The position numbers and the translations under genes were made by a program. Shown here one piece after another: positions 9,771 through 19,442 of a stretch of 20,492 bases of DNA (position 1 is the stretch's first letter; each line of letters starts with the position of its first letter). The stretch comes from a virus: positions 1-20,492 of the IMG/VR virus record IMGVR_UViG_3300046683_000040; one strand, 5' to 3'. The notes beneath the pieces are model-generated. The model was not told where the DNA came from. It was given only the letters and a program-made list of their open reading frames with translations, and made no database searches.

Positions 9771-10144
9771 CCTAGGACCGGCGTGATCGTCATCGTCAGG
9801 TCGCGGATATAGAGCCGTCCTTGCAGCGTTTCGTTGACCGTGAAGGTCAGCCAATACGGCACCCCGGCCGACGCTGGCGGCGCGTAGAACCCGACCGTGA
9901 CGCGTAAGCCCCGGTCGTCCAGTGTGTTCGGCCACGAGGCGCCCGCGAGGCGCAGATCGTTGCCGGTGATCGCCGTGCCGTCCGCGCGGTAGATGCCGAT
10001 CGCCACCGTCGCGATCGAGGTGATCTTGTCACCGACGATGCCGAGATCGGTGGAGGCATCGATATAGCGCCCATCGACCTCGCCCGCGCGCAGCGGCGGC
10101 ATGCACACGGGACCGGGGGTTGGGGCGCAGTCGCAGCCGTTCAC
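9767..10144 (-). CDS. Fibre-tail adaptor-like beta protein
   Basis: The product is 125 aa from a GTG start that overlaps the fibre stop in a GTGA junction. After a Cys/Pro N-terminus (NGCDCAPTPGPVCMPPLRAG), residues about 24-125 look like one Ig-like beta sandwich: KITSIATVAIGIYRADGTAI, then GDLR-type strands, VPYWLTFTVNE and a final RDLTMTITPVLG. This pattern is that of small phage proteins placed next to fibre or lysis genes and named fibre-tail adaptor in some annotations. Its position right after the giant fibre fits a protein that joins fibre to tail or baseplate. The role is inferred. Confidence 0.6.
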   Translation of the reverse strand: MNGCDCAPTPGPVCMPPLRAGEVDGRYIDASTDLGIVGDKITSIATVAIGIYRADGTAITGNDLRLAGASWPNTLDDRGLRVTVGFYAPPASAGVPYWLTFTVNETLQGRLYIRDLTMTITPVLG

Positions 10145-13100
10145 AGCACGGACACTCCGACCAGTTGCGGTGGCAGGTAGACGCCCTGCGAGGCGATCTG
10201 TTCGCGCGGCTTGCTGGCATCGGTCTCGATCTGGCCGACACCTCTGATCCGCGCGCTGGTGTGCTGGTGCGATTTCTGTTCGCCGTCGAACCCGACGTGT
10301 CCCTGCCCGGCGATGGCAACGTGCGCCATGACCCGATCATGGCTGCGTTCGATCACATGGCCACGCGCGGTGATCCTGACATGCGCTTCGGCGTGCAGCG
10401 TGGCGCGGACATGCGACACCGTGGCGTGACCGGCGATCCTGACATGGGTCGAGACCAGCACATGAGCGGTTGCTCTGACGCTGCCCGCGCCGCCAAGCTT
10501 GGCATGCACCGGGAAGGGTGCCTTGCGGTGGCCCGCGACGAACGCACCCAGTCCGTGGATCATGGCCAGCGCGGGCGCCCAAACGCTGCCACGCGCCGTG
10601 ACGCTGCCAGCCCCTGTGATGCTCGCCCTGGCGTGCTGCGACCGCGCAGCGTGCGCCGTAGCCCCGCCAGCGCCGTGGATCGCGGCTGCCGCGTGGACCT
10701 GGGTGACGGTGACGCTGTCCACCCGCAGCCAGCTTGAGCCGTCGATCTGCGCCTCTGCCGAGACCTGACCGATCTGTGACCCGTTCGCCCTGGCCGTGCC
10801 GGTGCCGTGGATCGTGGCGCTTGCTGCCACCAGCACCCGCGTGACGCTCGCCCTGACCGTGCCGACGCCCGCGATGGTCTTGTCCACGTTGACCACGGCA
10901 GCGCGCAGGCCGATCGCCACTATGGCGCCCAGGCCCGCGATCAACGCCTCCGCCGCCACGGTGGCAGCGCGGAACGCATCGGCGCGGACCCTGCCGACAC
11001 CCGCGATCAGCGCCGCCGCGCCGAGCGTCTGGCGGATCGGCGTGCCGTCAGCGGCGACCTGTCCAACCCCACCGATGCCAGCACTGGCCACCGGACGATG
11101 GTTGAGCAGGCCCCTGACCTCACCCTCGCCGTCGAGCAGCGCCTCGGCGTGCCGCCATGCCGTGCCGTGCGCGTCAACCGTGCCCGCACCAGCCACCAGG
11201 GCTTGCCCTGCGGCCCGCACGGTGGCGGTCGCGTAGACGTTGCCCTCTGCCTCGATCAGCCCGTCACAGGGCGGCGCGCGCCTGCCCTGGACATGCACGG
11301 CGGCAGTCCCGGTGATCGTCGCCGCCGCTGTCTGCAAGACCGCGATGATCGTGTCGCGCACCCGCAAGAGACCAGCGCCCGCCATGGTGACGTTGCCGGA
11401 TTTGGCCGGGAACGCGGTGGCATACAGCCTGCTGTTTCCGGCGATCGTCGCGGCGCCGTAGCGCACCCGCTGCGACACCGCAGCGATCTGCCCGACGCCC
11501 CGGATGCGCGCGATAGTCGGATGCGCGACAGCGGCGGTTGCCTGCACGCCGCCGACGCCAAGCAGGCGCGCCTTGACGGCTTCCTTGGCGGCGAAACCGA
11601 CAATGACCGAACCAGTGCCGTGGATCACGGCATGCGCCGCGTGGAACTGATGCAGCCCCACGATGATGATGTTGCCGACGCCCGCCAGCGTCGCGTTGGC
11701 GCGTGCCTGTCCGACGAACGAACTGTCGGCGCTGATCAGCCCCTGGCCGTTGATCCGCGCCGCCGCCTGCACGACCTGGGTGGGCTTTGCCTCGACGCCA
11801 CGCAGCGCCCGTTGCGGGGCGCCGATCGGCGGCAGCATCAGCGACGTGACGTTGAGTATCTCAAGTTGCGGTGCGCCGATCCGCAGCGTGATGTCGATCG
11901 CGAGTTCCGAGAGGAACCGCATCAGCATCACCGGACGGGTGTAGTAGACGTTGGCTTCTGAGAATGGGAACGTCGTGACGGTGGAGCAGCGCGCCTGATC
12001 GAGCGGCGTGACGGCATCTGACGGCGTTACGATCGTATAATTATCGGTGATGTAGGTGCCGTCAGCCCTGAACGCCTGGGCATTCAGGTTGAAGGTGATG
12101 GGACTCCTGTCACCGTCGATGACCTTGAGGAACGCCGACAACGCGACGGTGTCATACTGATTGGCGCGGATTTCCTGATTACCGGCGAAGATGACATCAA
12201 CCACGAGATCGTTCGTGGTGCCGATCCAATGCACATCGATGTAAGGGATGCCGTTCTCGATGCCGGTGCCCAGGATAGTCTGCGTCAAGCCTGCGGTGCG
12301 CAGACCCTGCTGCCACCCGACAGGCCACGTCCCAGGCGTGCCAGGAACCGCGCCTTCGGCGCGCGGGTTGGTGATGAAGTTGGTCTTGCCGCCCTGGCCG
12401 GGAATCGCCAGCACCGGCAATGCCAGCTTGGCGAGTGTCGCGCCGACGCCGCCAGCGCCCGCGATCGTCGCGACACCGGGACGCACCGCGCTGGTGGTCG
12501 CGCTGACACTGCCGACGCCATCGATCTCCGCCTGCGCCAGCCCTGGCACGCGCGGCATCGCCAGCAAGCCGCGTGACGTAGTGCCTGGAACACCGACCGG
12601 CGGCAGAATTAGCGGCGTGCGAACTGAGCCACGCTCAAGCTGACAGGCGGCGATCCTGATGGTGAAATCAACCGCCCCGGAAGCAGGATAGTTCCACGCT
12701 AAAAAGCCACCACTGACCATCGTCGCGCCAGTGGGCGCTGCTGCGGTGCTGCCGTAAGCCGTCAGTGTCGCGTTAAGCAGTGTGCCGATGACAACGGGAT
12801 TATTGCCGACATCGAAATTCGAGACGTAGTAGAACGTCCCAGGCGGGATATTGGCGAGACTGCCGCCCACCAGAGCGAGCCATGCCGTGGTGGTAAACGT
12901 GTCGCCAGCGGCAACGATTGGCCAGTAAGTCGGCTCGACGTGGAGGAACGCATTGCCCGCCACCGCTGTGCCGGAAACCCGCACATCGACATAGGCAAAG
13001 CCGGTTCTCGCATCGACGCCGGTCGCGACGATCTGTCTGGTTACTCCAGGCTGCGCCGGGTTGTCTGATGGAAACCAATAGGTCGGATAAGCACCGCCCG

Positions 13101-16100
13101 AGCCGATCACGCCAAGCACCGCGCCCTCGGCGCGCGGGTTGCGCACGTAGTTGGTCTGCCCGCCACGACCATCGATCTGCGCGCCGGTCGGTGCGTAGTT
13201 TCGGGCATCGACCGAGAGCGAACCAACAGCAGTGATCCGCGCGCCAGCCGCCGCCAGCGTGTAGGCACTCGCTGTGACGCTGCCCGCGCCGCCGATGGTG
13301 ACGTTGCCAAGGATGGTCGGCGCGGCGACGACGGTGTCGGGGATCGCCTGCCACAGCGAGGTGTAGATCGGCGTCGCGGTAGCGTCGGTAATGCGACAGA
13401 CCACCGGGAAATCGGCGTTCGGTGCCCCTGGAGGTCTAAACGTGACCCGCTGCCACTGATTGGTCAGGCTGAGATTAGCGCCAAAACCCGGCGGTCCAGG
13501 GTAACCGCCGCCCTCAGCGTTGATTTGAATGGCCGTCCCGGCCCATCCGGCTGGTATCCATACCATCACGCTGACCGTCAGCGGGATGTAGGGTAACCCA
13601 ACAGTTCCGATAGCGCCCGCTTGGTTGGTTCCGACCCCAGATGCGATGTGCTTGAACACCAGCGCGCCGACAGAAGGTGGCACAATGTCGGTCGAGATGA
13701 CGCACGTATTCGTGCCGCCAGCAACAGGGATCGCCTGGGCTGATATCTTGTTACCGTTGCCACCCGCGATCACCGCCCCGGTCGGCACCGCCACAGGCGC
13801 GATGGACGCTGCTACACTGCCCGTGCCGTTGATCGTGGCGCCGGTCGGGGTGAACGATCCGGGCGCCGCCAGCAAGGCACGCGTGGTCAGCGCCCAGGTT
13901 CCAACCGGAGGCAGGATCAGCGGCGTGCGAACCGAACCACGCTCTAACTGTGCGCCCGATATGCGCAGGGTGAAGTCAACCGCGCCTGCGGCGTAGACGA
14001 TCTGGATGTAGCCGCCCTGAACTGAGCGGGTGCCACTAGGCGCGACTCCGGTCGTGCCCCATGCCGATGGTATCGCCGTGACCGAAGGTATCGGAATACT
14101 GACGATAATCTGACCAGTCGGCTGAAACGCCGAGACGAAATAGAGGTTGGTGATGTTGGCTAAGGTTCCGCCCGATACCGACAGCCAGACCGTGTTGATG
14201 AACTGACTGCCGCCGCCGAATGGAAACGTGCCGTTCTCGACATACAGATAGAACTGGCCGGTTCCTATCGTCGTGCCGGAATAGCGAACATCGATGTAGT
14301 TACAGCCGGTATATGCGTCCAGCCCTACGCCGACGACCTGTTGCGTTAATTGGGCTGGGAGTGAAGCGACATTCCAGGCTGACGGCAGCGTTCCCGGCGT
14401 GCCGGGCGCCGCGTTAATAGCGCGCGGATTGCGGATGTAGTTCGTGGCGCCGCCGGTCCCGTCGATCTGCGCGCTGGCGTTGATCGCGATACCGGGGGCT
14501 GCAAGCAAGGCACGCGTCGAGACCTGGGGCGAGCCTGCCGGTGGCCAGATCGGACTGCTGACCGGCCCGCGCTCCAACTGCGGCGACGCGATACGCAATG
14601 TGAAATCGATCGCCTGCAATACGTCGTAGTAGACCCAGATGCCCGACTGCACCTGGGTCATCGTCGGGTAAGGACCGATGCCGGTGCCGACCAACTGCTG
14701 GTCAATCAACGGAGCATTGGTGGGCACAAAGGTTTGCGGCGTCGTCCAACCATAGCTGAGAACGCCATTTGCAGCGTCCAACGCATACGTCATCAAATGG
14801 ACGCCGACGTTACCCGCCGAATAGGTCGGGAACGCCCCGGCTTGCAATTTTATATAGACCGAATTGGTCCAGGTCTCGCCGGATATTCCTCGCGTTGTAT
14901 AGCTGACAGTGACCGGATTATATGAAAACGCCAGATTAAAGGCCAGGGAGTTGGTCGGCCCTGTGGTCGTGCCGTATATACGAAGGTCTATATACGATAA
15001 TCCGCCCTCGGTGCCGGTCCCAGTGATCTGCCACGCCAGACCCGCGCCCATACTGAGACCGAGCCAGCCAATGGGCAGCGTCCCAGGCGTGCCTGGAACC
15101 GCGCCTTCCAGTCGGGGGTTGTATATCCAATTCGTGGTGCCGCCCTGCCCAGCGATCAGCGCATTCGCAACGGCTGGCGTGGTGACCAGATCGAGGTCGA
15201 GGCCGTAGAACTGATAATCCTGGGCCGAAATTGTCGGACTGGCAGACGGTGGATTAGCAAACGCCGACCACACCGAGCCACCGACGACGCCTCGCAGCGC
15301 CGTCAGGCTTTGGTCAGCCCACATCTGCCCGTCACCGGCTGCGGCAAGGGTCGCGAGGAAATAAGTGTTGCCAACCGTCAGCGTGGTCTGTGGCAGCGCC
15401 GTGTAGTAGAAGATACCGGGTATCGCGCCAGTCAGATCGATGGTGACGGTCTGCACCGTGGTGCCGCCGGTAACATCGTATATTCTGAGCGTGTGGATGC
15501 CCGTGCCACCGATCGGGCAACGAATGCCGATACGATTGAACGTCAGCGCAACAGCGGCTGTAAACCGCACACCGAGATCGCCGCCAAAATCCTGTCGGTT
15601 TGCTGTGCTGGCCGCAACGCCAAAACTTACCGCGAACCGGTTTGGCGTAACATCGCGACCACCGCTGGCGTTGGCGAAGATGCCGCGTTCTTGTGTTATA
15701 TACCGCGAAACCGCTGGCAGGATCGGCGCAGTCGGCACCGTGCCGATCTCAAGTTGCTGCGGGCCAAACCGCAACGTGATGTCGATCGGCAGACCGGCTG
15801 TTACATCGATACGAAAATCGGCAATCACATTAACGAGGAAATCTGGCGGGACATACGCGACAGAATAACGCGTCAGTGTCGCGGTCGGAGTGAACGGCCC
15901 AAACGCCGCACCGAAGCTGCCCGCAATACCAAGACCGCCACGAATGTCCAAGTTTGTAGCGCCAATATTGGCCAGACTGCCGCCGACCATCGCGACGTAG
16001 CAAGAAAAGACCAGGGGCGTGTTGCCGCCGAACGCAGGCATGACCGCCTGATTGTTAAACCCGAGAATGACGCCCGTGCCGGTCGGCGTGCCATAATGGC

Positions 16101-17808
16101 GCAGATCGACATAGGGCGTGCCATCCGCGAGCGTGCCGAAGCCAGTCACAGACACTGTGACGCCGTTGCTGGCGTAGTAGGCCCAGTAAGGCGGCTGCGA
16201 GCCGCCTGCCCCGAGAACCCCGACTGTTGCGCCCCATCCGCGCGGGTTGGGGATGTAGTTGACCGGCGCGCCGCCTGTGCCCGCGATCAGCGCGGAGGCG
16301 GCGACAGGCCCCCTGACGGCATTGGGCGCGACACCGCCCGCACCAGCGATCCGCGCCTGGGCGTTATAGATCAGCGTAGCATTCGCCAGCACGCTGCCAG
16401 CGCCATTGATCCGCGCCGATGTTTGGAACGCCTGCGGACCGGCCAGACGAATCGTTGCATCGGCACGAACTGCGCCAGCGCCACCGAACACCGCGCCTTG
16501 CATGATCGCTGGATTGAACGTCCAATGATTACCACTGTAAGGTCGGGAAGTTCCTAGCGTCGGTGCATCGTTATACGACGCGCCAGTGTTTGTCAGCCAC
16601 GCGCCGTTGTGTGTGATGTTGGACGCGGCACCAGAGCCGGTTGTGCCTGATCGGGTAAGCGGCGGGGTTTCCCATCCGTTTACCGTGTCCAGTGTGAACG
16701 TGTCGCCGATCGGACCATTGACGGTCAGAATATTGAGAATGCCCTGTCCTGCATTCAGAGGCTGGGGTCCGGTGCCGACACTTGGATTGCCAGAGGCAGC
16801 GTTATAGGCAAATCCAGATGGATTTCTGCTGGGAGCATAGCCACTGACAAAGACCGCCGACGACACCTCGGTGAGAGATGACGTGGTGATGTTGATATTC
16901 TGCCCGAATGGCAGACCTTTGGAATTGCCGCACCAATAAGCCTGATACGAGATACCCTGCGTGTTGGCGAGACCACCGAGACTGACATAGGTGTTGCCCG
17001 CGTTATCACTGACAGATACGACCGGCATCGTCGTGCTGAGTGCCGATACCTGAAAAAAGATGCCAGCACCAACTGGAACGCCACCGGTCGGAGCTGGAAT
17101 GATCTGAGCAGTCCCCGGCTTAGCATTAACGCTGCCGATATCGTAGAACGAGACACCGATGCTTGCCGGTCTGACCGCAAAGATGATGCAATTCCAATTG
17201 CGGGCAGCGAATGACGCGTTATAGTTTATCTGTGTTGAGGCGACGATCTGACCACCGGCAACCGTAAGGTCCGTGCCGCCTGTCGTGCCAACGCGCGTTG
17301 GTGGCGGATCGGACCAGCCGCTTGATTGCGTGAAACTGTCAGTGACAGGTCCGTCAGTGCCCACCGCAGCAAGGATCAGCGAGTTGGACAACATCGGCAC
17401 CACTGCCAGTGGCAGGCTACCCGTTGACGCGCTGGACTGGGCGCTGCCGGTGTTTACTGTCGCCGTATCGATCGGACGATAAGGGTCCGCTCCGGTGACG
17501 TAGAAAGCCGACAGGACGTAGGTCTGGGCAGAAGCCCCTGCACTGGACCTGATGGCAGTGCCAGCCGCCAGACCGGTTGGCGTAACATAATAATCCACCG
17601 ACAGGCCGTAATTCGACGTGCTGTTGCCTCGGTAGACAACAAGCACCGTAGGTGACCCGGCGACGGTGACGGTGTGTCCGACCGAATTATTGGCAAACGT
17701 ATATACGATGACGACCGCGCCAGCCGGTATGTCTACCGCCGTCGTGACCGTCGCGGAGGTCACACCTTTGACGGCAACGGTTCCCAGATCAACGGTCGTG
17801 AAGGCCAT
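10141..17808 (-). CDS. Giant modular tail-fibre / receptor-binding protein (2555 aa)
   Basis: Layout from the N-terminus: two similar beta domains (about 1-215 and 216-435); a short run of AxIxGxGxVxA repeats (about 437-515); then five modules beginning TNYIxNPRxEGAVPGTPG-like at about 516, 889, 1120, 1550 and 1806, each about 190-200 residues and ending in DITLRI-x-x-x-QLE. A DUF4082-like beta domain (about 718-873) follows module 1, and another beta domain (about 1350-1495) lies before module 4. The last 540 residues are about 25 further repeats, and the end is VYLPPQLVGVSVL. The modules resemble ligand- or carbohydrate-binding folds seen in phage tail proteins. No clear Shine-Dalgarno sequence precedes the ATG. 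Position between fibre and adaptor genes supports a receptor-binding role; no chaperone or peptidase domain is seen. Confidence 0.75.
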   Translation of the reverse strand: MAFTTVDLGTVAVKGVTSATVTTAVDIPAGAVVIVYTFANNSVGHTVTVAGSPTVLVVYRGNSTSNYGLSVDYYVTPTGLAAGTAIRSSAGASAQTYVLSAFYVTGADPYRPIDTATVNTGSAQSSASTGSLPLAVVPMLSNSLILAAVGTDGPVTDSFTQSSGWSDPPPTRVGTTGGTDLTVAGGQIVASTQINYNASFAARNWNCIIFAVRPASIGVSFYDIGSVNAKPGTAQIIPAPTGGVPVGAGIFFQVSALSTTMPVVSVSDNAGNTYVSLGGLANTQGISYQAYWCGNSKGLPFGQNINITTSSLTEVSSAVFVSGYAPSRNPSGFAYNAASGNPSVGTGPQPLNAGQGILNILTVNGPIGDTFTLDTVNGWETPPLTRSGTTGSGAASNITHNGAWLTNTGASYNDAPTLGTSRPYSGNHWTFNPAIMQGAVFGGAGAVRADATIRLAGPQAFQTSARINGAGSVLANATLIYNAQARIAGAGGVAPNAVRGPVAASALIAGTGGAPVNYIPNPRGWGATVGVLGAGGSQPPYWAYYASNGVTVSVTGFGTLADGTPYVDLRHYGTPTGTGVILGFNNQAVMPAFGGNTPLVFSCYVAMVGGSLANIGATNLDIRGGLGIAGSFGAAFGPFTPTATLTRYSVAYVPPDFLVNVIADFRIDVTAGLPIDITLRFGPQQLEIGTVPTAPILPAVSRYITQERGIFANASGGRDVTPNRFAVSFGVAASTANRQDFGGDLGVRFTAAVALTFNRIGIRCPIGGTGIHTLRIYDVTGGTTVQTVTIDLTGAIPGIFYYTALPQTTLTVGNTYFLATLAAAGDGQMWADQSLTALRGVVGGSVWSAFANPPSASPTISAQDYQFYGLDLDLVTTPAVANALIAGQGGTTNWIYNPRLEGAVPGTPGTLPIGWLGLSMGAGLAWQITGTGTEGGLSYIDLRIYGTTTGPTNSLAFNLAFSYNPVTVSYTTRGISGETWTNSVYIKLQAGAFPTYSAGNVGVHLMTYALDAANGVLSYGWTTPQTFVPTNAPLIDQQLVGTGIGPYPTMTQVQSGIWVYYDVLQAIDFTLRIASPQLERGPVSSPIWPPAGSPQVSTRALLAAPGIAINASAQIDGTGGATNYIRNPRAINAAPGTPGTLPSAWNVASLPAQLTQQVVGVGLDAYTGCNYIDVRYSGTTIGTGQFYLYVENGTFPFGGGSQFINTVWLSVSGGTLANITNLYFVSAFQPTGQIIVSIPIPSVTAIPSAWGTTGVAPSGTRSVQGGYIQIVYAAGAVDFTLRISGAQLERGSVRTPLILPPVGTWALTTRALLAAPGSFTPTGATINGTGSVAASIAPVAVPTGAVIAGGNGNKISAQAIPVAGGTNTCVISTDIVPPSVGALVFKHIASGVGTNQAGAIGTVGLPYIPLTVSVMVWIPAGWAGTAIQINAEGGGYPGPPGFGANLSLTNQWQRVTFRPPGAPNADFPVVCRITDATATPIYTSLWQAIPDTVVAAPTILGNVTIGGAGSVTASAYTLAAAGARITAVGSLSVDARNYAPTGAQIDGRGGQTNYVRNPRAEGAVLGVIGSGGAYPTYWFPSDNPAQPGVTRQIVATGVDARTGFAYVDVRVSGTAVAGNAFLHVEPTYWPIVAAGDTFTTTAWLALVGGSLANIPPGTFYYVSNFDVGNNPVVIGTLLNATLTAYGSTAAAPTGATMVSGGFLAWNYPASGAVDFTIRIAACQLERGSVRTPLILPPVGVPGTTSRGLLAMPRVPGLAQAEIDGVGSVSATTSAVRPGVATIAGAGGVGATLAKLALPVLAIPGQGGKTNFITNPRAEGAVPGTPGTWPVGWQQGLRTAGLTQTILGTGIENGIPYIDVHWIGTTNDLVVDVIFAGNQEIRANQYDTVALSAFLKVIDGDRSPITFNLNAQAFRADGTYITDNYTIVTPSDAVTPLDQARCSTVTTFPFSEANVYYTRPVMLMRFLSELAIDITLRIGAPQLEILNVTSLMLPPIGAPQRALRGVEAKPTQVVQAAARINGQGLISADSSFVGQARANATLAGVGNIIIVGLHQFHAAHAVIHGTGSVIVGFAAKEAVKARLLGVGGVQATAAVAHPTIARIRGVGQIAAVSQRVRYGAATIAGNSRLYATAFPAKSGNVTMAGAGLLRVRDTIIAVLQTAAATITGTAAVHVQGRRAPPCDGLIEAEGNVYATATVRAAGQALVAGAGTVDAHGTAWRHAEALLDGEGEVRGLLNHRPVASAGIGGVGQVAADGTPIRQTLGAAALIAGVGRVRADAFRAATVAAEALIAGLGAIVAIGLRAAVVNVDKTIAGVGTVRASVTRVLVAASATIHGTGTARANGSQIGQVSAEAQIDGSSWLRVDSVTVTQVHAAAAIHGAGGATAHAARSQHARASITGAGSVTARGSVWAPALAMIHGLGAFVAGHRKAPFPVHAKLGGAGSVRATAHVLVSTHVRIAGHATVSHVRATLHAEAHVRITARGHVIERSHDRVMAHVAIAGQGHVGFDGEQKSHQHTSARIRGVGQIETDASKPREQIASQGVYLPPQLVGVSVL
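10190..11775 (-). repeat. Array of about 25 degenerate 20-22-residue repeats at the fibre C-terminus
   Basis: The unit is roughly A-x-I-x-G-x-G-x-V-x-A followed by 8-12 variable residues, for example ALIAGVGRVRADAFRAATVA, ATIHGTGTARANGSQIGQVS and ASITGAGSVTARGSVWAP. I counted about 25 units by eye (residues about 2010-2535). At DNA level the units differ strongly and the region is very GC-rich, so the array is old and kept at protein level. A beta-helix or stacked-strand shaft is the likely structure. Confidence 0.75.
11790..16265 (-). repeat. Five NPR-type binding modules within the fibre gene
   Basis: Approximate spans are 15690-16265, 14500-15145, 13865-14452, 12560-13163 and 11790-12393. 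Each opens with a motif like TNYIRNPRAEGAVPGTPG, has a G-T-G-x-x-x-G-x-x-YIDVR-x-x-GT segment, and closes with QLERGSVRTPLILPPVG or a variant. Each is preceded by one repeat unit ending GxGG. Modules 3 and 4 share the closing GSVRTPLILPPVG exactly. The fold is probably a beta-sandwich like carbohydrate-binding modules; ligands are unknown. Confidence 0.7.
15190..15655 (-). other. DUF4082-like beta domain inside the fibre
   Basis: Residues about 718-873 of the fibre contain DLGVRFTAAVALTFNRIGIR, then GTGIHTLRIYDVTGG and TLTVGNTYFLATLAAAG. The order of a VRFT strand, an IR-strand, a G-x-H-T-L-x-IYD strand and a late NTYFLAT strand matches DUF4082, a domain of bacterial and phage surface proteins. 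It occurs once, between modules 1 and 2. Confidence 0.5.
16500..17808 (-). repeat. Duplicated N-terminal beta domain of the fibre
   Basis: Residues 1-215 and 216-435 share layout: an opening strand (DLGTVAVKG or DIGSVNAKPG), a VSxxxGNTYV- or VTVAGSPTVLV-like strand, a middle VTGADPYRPIDTAT or VSGYAPSRNPSGF segment, and an ending SGWSDPPPTRVGTTGG or NGWETPPLTRSGTTGS. This is an internal duplication. The N-terminal position suggests attachment to the tail. Confidence 0.6.
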
Positions 17809-17839: not shown

Positions 17840-18235
17840 TTAAGCCAAGGTAATGATCAAAGCGCCTGCTGCAAATACGAGGCTATCCCCCGCGTTCAGC
17901 GCCCTGGCAGTTGTGAGCGTGCCATACCACAACATATTGCCACCCGCCGCCGCAGCGGTGTCCCACACTTGCAGCCCCGAGATCGTTGCAGCGGAAAGGA
18001 TCGGCCCGAACGTCATCGCGCCGGTATTGGACGCACTGCCAGCGGGCGATGCAGCCGCTGCCATCAGCAGCGTCTGGCGCGTCATGCCCGAGCCGGTGGC
18101 GATCTCAGACCCCGACACCGACGACGGGACACCGAGCGACAGACCCACACTCCAGGTCGTCGGGCGCGTCACCGCCGCGTTGTTCAGGGAAAAATCCAAC
18201 ATTGCCTTTTCCAGGTATGCCGCTATGCCAGCCAT
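17840..18235 (-). CDS. Small tail-fibre protein
   Basis: The product is 131 aa. The start (MAGIAAYLEKAMLDFSLNNA), the WSVGLSLGVPSSVSGSEI segment, and the end ISGLQVWDTAAAAGGNMLWY then ALNAGDSLVFAAGALIITL match a common family of short phage tail-fibre proteins built as LNH...YVGL...WD...GNLLWYG...AGD. GAGGAGA lies six bases upstream of the ATG. The first 131 bp of the gene lie inside the end of the glycosyltransferase gene in another frame. It precedes the giant fibre and is likely part of the same host-recognition unit. Confidence 0.75.
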   Translation of the reverse strand: MAGIAAYLEKAMLDFSLNNAAVTRPTTWSVGLSLGVPSSVSGSEIATGSGMTRQTLLMAAAASPAGSASNTGAMTFGPILSAATISGLQVWDTAAAAGGNMLWYGTLTTARALNAGDSLVFAAGALIITLA

Positions 18236-19268
18236 GACTCTCTCCTCTCAAAGCGGCCTTGGCCGCGACAAAGACTTCCTCGTGTGAGATATCCGCGATG
18301 CACGCCGCCGCTTCGGCGTTCTCGGCTTTACGGCACGTCTCGATGGTGTCGTGCAGCTTGTGGCACGGCCAGCAATCGACGCGTTTCTGATCCGCGAACA
18401 GCGGCAGCGTGGCGGCCCAGTGCTTGGTGATGTTAACGGGCGACGCGTGGCTCAGAAGCATGATCTTCGGCACCGCTTCCATCGCGACGCCCCAGGCCAG
18501 CCCGGTGTCGGGCGAGATCACCAGATCGCACTGCTGCAAGGTCGTCAGCGAGCGGCGGATCGGCCAGGACGGCTTATCCTTGTCGGGCGAAATCGCCGCG
18601 TGCATACCGCTGTAGCCACTGTTGTATTCGCCCACAAAGTCCTGGATGTGCTTGGCGATCTTGGTCTCGGCCTCGGAGCCGAACAGCAGCACGGCGACGT
18701 TCAGTTCGCGCACCAGCTTGGCGACCAGCAAGGGCAGGTAGGGCCAGGATTTGTCGAGGCGCGAACCGGACAGGACGATACCGACAACATGACGATAGCC
18801 GCCAGCGCCGCGCACCGCGTCCAGCGTCCTGCGCGCGTGGTCGGTCTCCTCGATCGTCGGATAGAAGCGCGGGTTAAATTCATGCCGCACCCCCACGATG
18901 TCGTGGACGTATTCCAGGTAATTCACGCCGCAGTATTTGCGGCGCCACGCGGCGGGCCAGTGAAACTGGGTCTGCCCCGGCAGCAGCGCCAGCACGCCTT
19001 CGCAGGAGTGCGACAGGTTGAACCAGCGATCGTATTCGCGCCCGCGATGGGCGAACCATTGCTGCCAATGATTGCCATCGGCCGGGAGGTCGCCGGACTT
19101 GCGCACCGTCAGCTTGGCGATGTGCGGGTTGTTTTCAAAGACGACGTGCTGCGGTTCCTGGGCCATGACCTCGACGTTGTGCGTCTCGGCAAGCAGCGGC
19201 AGCACAGAGGACGCGATCAGGTTGTCGCCAATCCCTCCGAGACGGGCGAGCAGACACCACGGCTTCAT
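18105..19268 (-). CDS. Glycosyltransferase family 9 (heptosyltransferase-like)
   Basis: The product is 387 aa. The N-terminus CLLARLGGIGDNLIASSVLP is the usual GT9 opening; VVGIVLSGSRLDKSWPYLPL and LTTLQQCDLVISPDTGLAWG with D254 are the nucleotide-sugar binding side. Residues 299-323 hold four cysteines as C-x2-C-x9-C-x10-C (CWPCHKLHDTIETC then AAC), similar in kind to the metal-binding cysteine cluster of autotransporter heptosyltransferases. Residues 345-387 overlap the next gene in another frame and look non-conserved (low-complexity, no GT9 features). Start at 19268 is three bases after the previous stop, with no clear Shine-Dalgarno, so coupling is likely. Substrate unknown: surface glycan or a virion protein. 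Confidence 0.78.
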   Translation of the reverse strand: MKPWCLLARLGGIGDNLIASSVLPLLAETHNVEVMAQEPQHVVFENNPHIAKLTVRKSGDLPADGNHWQQWFAHRGREYDRWFNLSHSCEGVLALLPGQTQFHWPAAWRRKYCGVNYLEYVHDIVGVRHEFNPRFYPTIEETDHARRTLDAVRGAGGYRHVVGIVLSGSRLDKSWPYLPLLVAKLVRELNVAVLLFGSEAETKIAKHIQDFVGEYNSGYSGMHAAISPDKDKPSWPIRRSLTTLQQCDLVISPDTGLAWGVAMEAVPKIMLLSHASPVNITKHWAATLPLFADQKRVDCWPCHKLHDTIETCRKAENAEAAACIADISHEEVFVAAKAALRGESHGWHSGIPGKGNVGFFPEQRGGDAPDDLECGSVARCPVVGVGV

Positions 19269-19271
19269 GCG

Positions 19272-19442
19272 TTACAGGCGGCCGAGCAGAAACAACACCA
19301 GCAACACCACGAGGAGCAGGCCGACGAGGCCGATGCCGCCGCCGTAGTAGGGGCTGCCGTAATAGCCTCGGTGATAGCCGTAGCCCCCGCCGAACAGCAG
19401 GATGATCACCAGCACGATCAAAATGAGCAGGATCGGTGACAT
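19272..19442 (-). CDS. Two-TM small membrane protein, DUF3309-like
   Basis: The product is 56 aa: MSPILLILIVLVIILLFGGG, a central YGYHRGYYGSPYYGG loop, then GLVGLLLVVLLVLFLLGRL. Two hydrophobic helices flank a Gly/Tyr-rich loop, and the LLLLGR ending is that of DUF3309, a small protein family common in alphaproteobacterial genomes. GGAG nine bases upstream of the ATG supports the start. It lies three bases before the glycosyltransferase. Function is unknown; placed between lysis and glycosylation genes, it may be a holin-like or membrane-anchor protein, but this is a guess. Confidence 0.65.
   Translation of the reverse strand: MSPILLILIVLVIILLFGGGYGYHRGYYGSPYYGGGIGLVGLLLVVLLVLFLLGRL

Follow-up and report, generated by a model that had tools for sequence, protein, structure and literature searches.

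The glycosyltransferase encoded in this viral window (the whole stretch of DNA analysed, an IMG/VR virus record of 20,492 bases) is a divergent GT-B enzyme of the GT9 family, and the group to which it belongs, whose members carry four cysteines in the C-terminal lobe, represents a phage branch new to GT9, with a conserved cassette linked to fibre genes. The gene lies on the minus strand at 18105..19268, begins with ATG and encodes 387 aa, with a core of about residues 1-345. The literature search turned up no publication that connects GT9, the cysteines and phages.

All recognised structural genes of the window are on the same strand as GT9. In minus-strand order, a 206-aa protein whose N-terminus is of membrane type is followed by two small proteins, GT9 and a gp80-type fibre gene, and then by a 2555-aa fibre-like protein, a head maturation protease, minor and major head genes, a neck terminator and a tail sheath. 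Given this order, with its head, neck and tail sheath genes, the phage is contractile-tailed and GT9 sits inside its structural block. Directly upstream is a 56-aa membrane-type, DUF3309-like protein (19272..19442, minus strand; Pfam 5.5e-4, just below cut-off), and the GT9 start lies 3 bases past the upstream stop codon. A search around the GT9 gene gave no sigma-70-like promoter. At the other end, the placement of the enzyme among fibre genes, proposed from the sequence-only reading, holds: the gene for the 131-aa gp80-type fibre/tail structural protein (17840..18235, minus strand; PF23140, Pfam 1.9e-25) adjoins GT9 in most relatives, and in the window its start overlaps the GT9 3' end by 131 nt (18105..18235, minus strand, from the ORF coordinates). 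An overlap of this length is unusual; one of similar length occurs at loci L002 and L011, and not at L006 or L008.

Past residue ~345 the GT9 frame runs through the first part of the gp80-type gene, and conservation within the GT9 family is lost; in L006 and L008 this tail region is different or absent. Because the tail overlaps another gene and varies between relatives, a functional C-terminal extension is unlikely.

The large fibre-like protein (10141..17808, minus strand) is a candidate acceptor. It is repetitive, with 17 motifs of the A-x-I-x-G-x-G-x-V-x-A type against a mean of 0.6 in shuffled sequences, and these are often ~20 or 40 residues apart. Ser/Thr make up 12% of its last 555 aa, and the repeats are not especially rich in these residues.

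The original identification as a phage GT9 was right, but for a divergent member. Against the GT9 profile PF01075 the protein scores 19.2 bits, below the cut-off of 22, and 50 of 69 relatives match the profile (E up to 0.1), the best at 3.1e-9. The AlphaFold model (mean pLDDT 95.4) has a clear GT9 fold. In structure comparison the Veillonella parvula GT9 (PDB 3tov) ranks highest (Z 26.1), ahead of WaaF (24.8), WaaC (21.6) and TibC (20.8); below TibC come plant NDH subunits (19-20) and, at 14.3 or less, other GT-B-like families. A PDB sequence search with the single protein as query returned chance matches only. Alignment with WaaC and WaaF places the GT9 active-site motifs in the phage protein. 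D15 (codon 19224..19226, minus strand), at the site of the catalytic Asp of G-x-G-D, aligns to the GD motif of both enzymes and is present in 69/69 members; K173 (codon 18750..18752, minus strand), in the donor-site motif S/T-R-x-D-K-x-x-P, aligns with the lysine of K-x-WP in both and is conserved in 68/69; and the DTG motif (D254-T255-G256) is conserved in 66-69/69. The best explanation of these features is a soluble enzyme from a divergent, phage-specific branch of GT9.

Translation confirms that the cysteines have the spacing first noted, with C299, C302, C312 and C323 forming C-x2-C-x9-C-x10-C exactly (residues 299-323, CWPCHKLHDTIETCRKAENAEAAAC; codons 18300..18374, minus strand). Spacing by itself is weak evidence, since 164 of 20,000 shuffles of the 345-aa core show the loose pattern. 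What indicates that the cluster is real and strongly constrained is its conservation: all four cysteines are invariant in the 69 aligned phage family members, whereas the remaining cysteines vary (C5 in 12/69, C247 in 32/69). Many members were first collected with a CWPCH-containing pattern, so the scan was repeated with patterns drawn from residues 1-265 only. The cluster was present in 62/62 complete distinct sequences, 46 of them with identical spacing, and three further sequences end at contig ends before it. By analogy with TibC, the cysteines most likely bind one zinc or iron ion, forming a structural knuckle that caps the C-lobe and is most likely not catalytic.

Close relatives of the enzyme were found in viral contigs only. 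Successive scans yielded 7 loci, then 13, then 93 with 80 retained, and the alignment comprises 69 members at about 30-50% identity. There were no relatives among 50,697 phage records (tblastn), in PHROGs or in a plasmid collection (tblastn), and the sole match in genome contigs, at 22% identity, came from a distant GT9 of Saprospiraceae. BFVD contains other phage proteins resembling GT9, variously RfaF-like or named Aah/TibC; their predicted fold is similar, but they constitute a separate family, and identity in the top six matches is only 11-16%.

A survey of cellular GT9 proteins, confined to Bacteroidota and E. coli, bears directly on the meaning of the cysteines. In Bacteroidota, the best PF01075 matches (L200-L229) carry the C-x2-C...C...C cluster at 25 of 29 loci, in the same alignment columns as the four cysteines of the phage protein. 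The cluster is absent from E. coli WaaC, WaaF, WaaQ and WaaU, and from Veillonella 3tov. Because ordinary Bacteroidota enzymes have the cluster in the same columns, we consider it, from these alignments, to be common in GT9 and no marker of protein glycosylation. The Bacteroidota and Veillonella proteins share the G-x-GD and D-[ST]-G motifs with the phage enzyme, and 3tov also its GT-B fold, but they are not phage fibre-linked genes, and the Bacteroidota proteins are only about 13-22% identical to the phage protein.

The link to fibre genes recurs across the phage family. Of the 51 loci with sufficient sequence, 43 have a gp80-type gene on the same strand no more than 2.5 kb downstream, and the distance to GT9 is 300 nt or less at 29 of 68 loci; many loci are fragments, and relatedness among loci inflates these counts. 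PF23140 was present in all seven contigs first tested, and seven contigs of 16-124 kb each have no more than one or two copies of the gp80 gene. The gp80 relatives carried by isolated phages sit in tail or structural modules; no annotated glycosyltransferase stands beside them in the three inspected. The repetitive fibre-like ORF is found at about 31/69 loci by motif count. Other companions are an FkbM methyltransferase, near GT9 in 27/69 and fused to it in 10, and a DUF5672 protein, near it in 25/69. The FkbM-type domain is N-terminal in nine of the fusions (L029, L086, L136, L174, L047, L063, L112, L187 and L087) and C-terminal in L064, making a two-domain sugar-modifying phage protein. At one locus (L035:8974-9408), a cysteine-rich protein without a Pfam match, similar to the YkgJ type, is encoded between the GT9 and DUF5672 genes.

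The donor sugar would be host-supplied in most of these phages, because the ADP-heptose synthesis gene rfaE_dom_II is absent from the 18 phage records searched and an NAD-epimerase occurs in 3 of the 18. The epimerases do not identify the donor. In the L038 and L018 contigs, NAD-dependent sugar epimerase genes lie at most a few kb from GT9 (G304:16030-16716, G003:54915-55544), which may be a clue to the donor sugar.

At roughly even confidence, we propose a late-expressed enzyme that adds a sugar supplied by the host to the fibre apparatus of the phage itself, its cysteines forming a structural metal knuckle. Observed behind this proposal are the fold, the conservation of the catalytic motifs and of the cysteines, and the synteny; we infer the metal, donor, acceptor and timing. 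The enzyme would probably be made late, alongside the structural proteins, since its gene lies in the structural block directly before, and overlapping, the gp80-type fibre gene. It would take a nucleotide sugar produced by the host and attach the sugar to a surface-exposed part of the virion: the gp80-type protein, the large repetitive fibre, or both. In related phages, altering or lengthening the glycan is the probable role of the FkbM methyltransferases and DUF5672 proteins, which is why we regard the locus as a putative fibre-decoration cassette. Fibre self-glycosylation, raised in the sequence-only reading, is thus plausible from the gene neighbourhood; the cysteines are not what supports it.

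A further reading is a true TibC/BAHT-type protein heptosyltransferase, oligomeric and with an iron finger, that would heptosylate the repetitive fibre. TibC binds ferric iron through Cys339/342/358/370, has an N-terminal barrel and thumb, and assembles as a dodecamer (PMC4358343). The phage protein shares with TibC and Aah the GT-B core, the approximate place of the C-lobe cluster, as had been proposed, and the S/T-x3-K spacing of TibC Thr226/Lys230. The cysteine spacing differs (x2-x9-x10 against x2-x15-x11 in TibC), and the alignment of TibC to the profiles stops 7-12 residues short of the first TibC cysteine, so that exact equivalence of the two clusters is likely rather than certain. Yet a finger that is also present in ordinary GT9 does not discriminate, and the nearest folds were those of ordinary GT9 enzymes and LPS heptosyltransferases, with TibC after them. 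The TibC/Aah profile TIGR04414 does not match the window protein up to E 10 and is not among the families matched by the 69 members. The TibC N-terminal beta-barrel (residues 1-97) is missing as well: the phage protein begins at the GT-B N-lobe, and residue 1 of the model aligns to TibC 95. Membership in the TibC/BAHT family is rejected on these two grounds, and the autotransporter-heptosyltransferase likeness loses its value as a special clue. The recognised neighbours are phage structural genes, no autotransporter being seen in the window, which is a fragment. The missing rfaE_dom_II counts against a heptosyltransferase, though the host could supply the donor. We consider this reading very improbable. 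Other phages may have an enzyme closer to TibC: BFVD lists a 924-aa uncultured phage protein named Glycosyltransferase Aah/TibC (A0A6J5SVC1).

The main rival to fibre decoration places the target on the host. During infection the enzyme would modify a surface glycan, the LPS core or some other, and alter the receptor, so that released virions avoid debris or other phages are unable to adsorb. WaaC and WaaF resemble the phage protein in fold (Z 21.6-24.8, above TibC), catalytic Asp and K-x-WP motif, and among curated models LPS heptosyltransferase I (TIGR02193) fits best, matched by 40/69 relatives, the best at 2e-8. The window protein itself, however, scores far below the curated cut-offs of the LPS enzymes (20.0 against 185.3 bits for TIGR02193, 14.1 against 134.6 for TIGR02195). 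Linkage to fibre genes fits a host-glycan role too, as such genes differ according to the host surface as well and can co-evolve with receptor-altering genes; but the position within the structural block, overlapping gp80, counts against it, FkbM and DUF5672 as companions suggest that the glycan is a dedicated one, and the window has no recognised flippase or serotype-conversion partner. We regard action on the host surface as possible but rather unlikely. Less likely still is action on some other substrate, such as a small molecule, a DNA base or a lipid, with gp80 merely marking a hotspot of accessory genes. The intervening and optional genes do differ between loci, as a hotspot would have it, but GT9 recurs beside gp80 across members at about 30-50% identity, and DNA is not known as a substrate of GT9 enzymes.

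Features that appear equivalent to the iron finger described as unique to TibC (PMC4358343) occur in ordinary GT9, which makes simple cellular enzymes a place to test what the finger does; in other GT9 enzymes that carry the cluster, the cysteines may play the same structural role as that proposed here. Tentatively, and with somewhat less assurance than an even chance, uncultivated phages may carry an undescribed large cassette of this cysteine-bearing GT9, often with FkbM, which is sometimes fused to it, and DUF5672, that glycosylates and methylates gp80-type fibres to give variable sugar coats. Were the fibre the target, uncultivated phages of a common family would sugar-coat their own receptor-binding apparatus, with a bearing on host range and adsorption.
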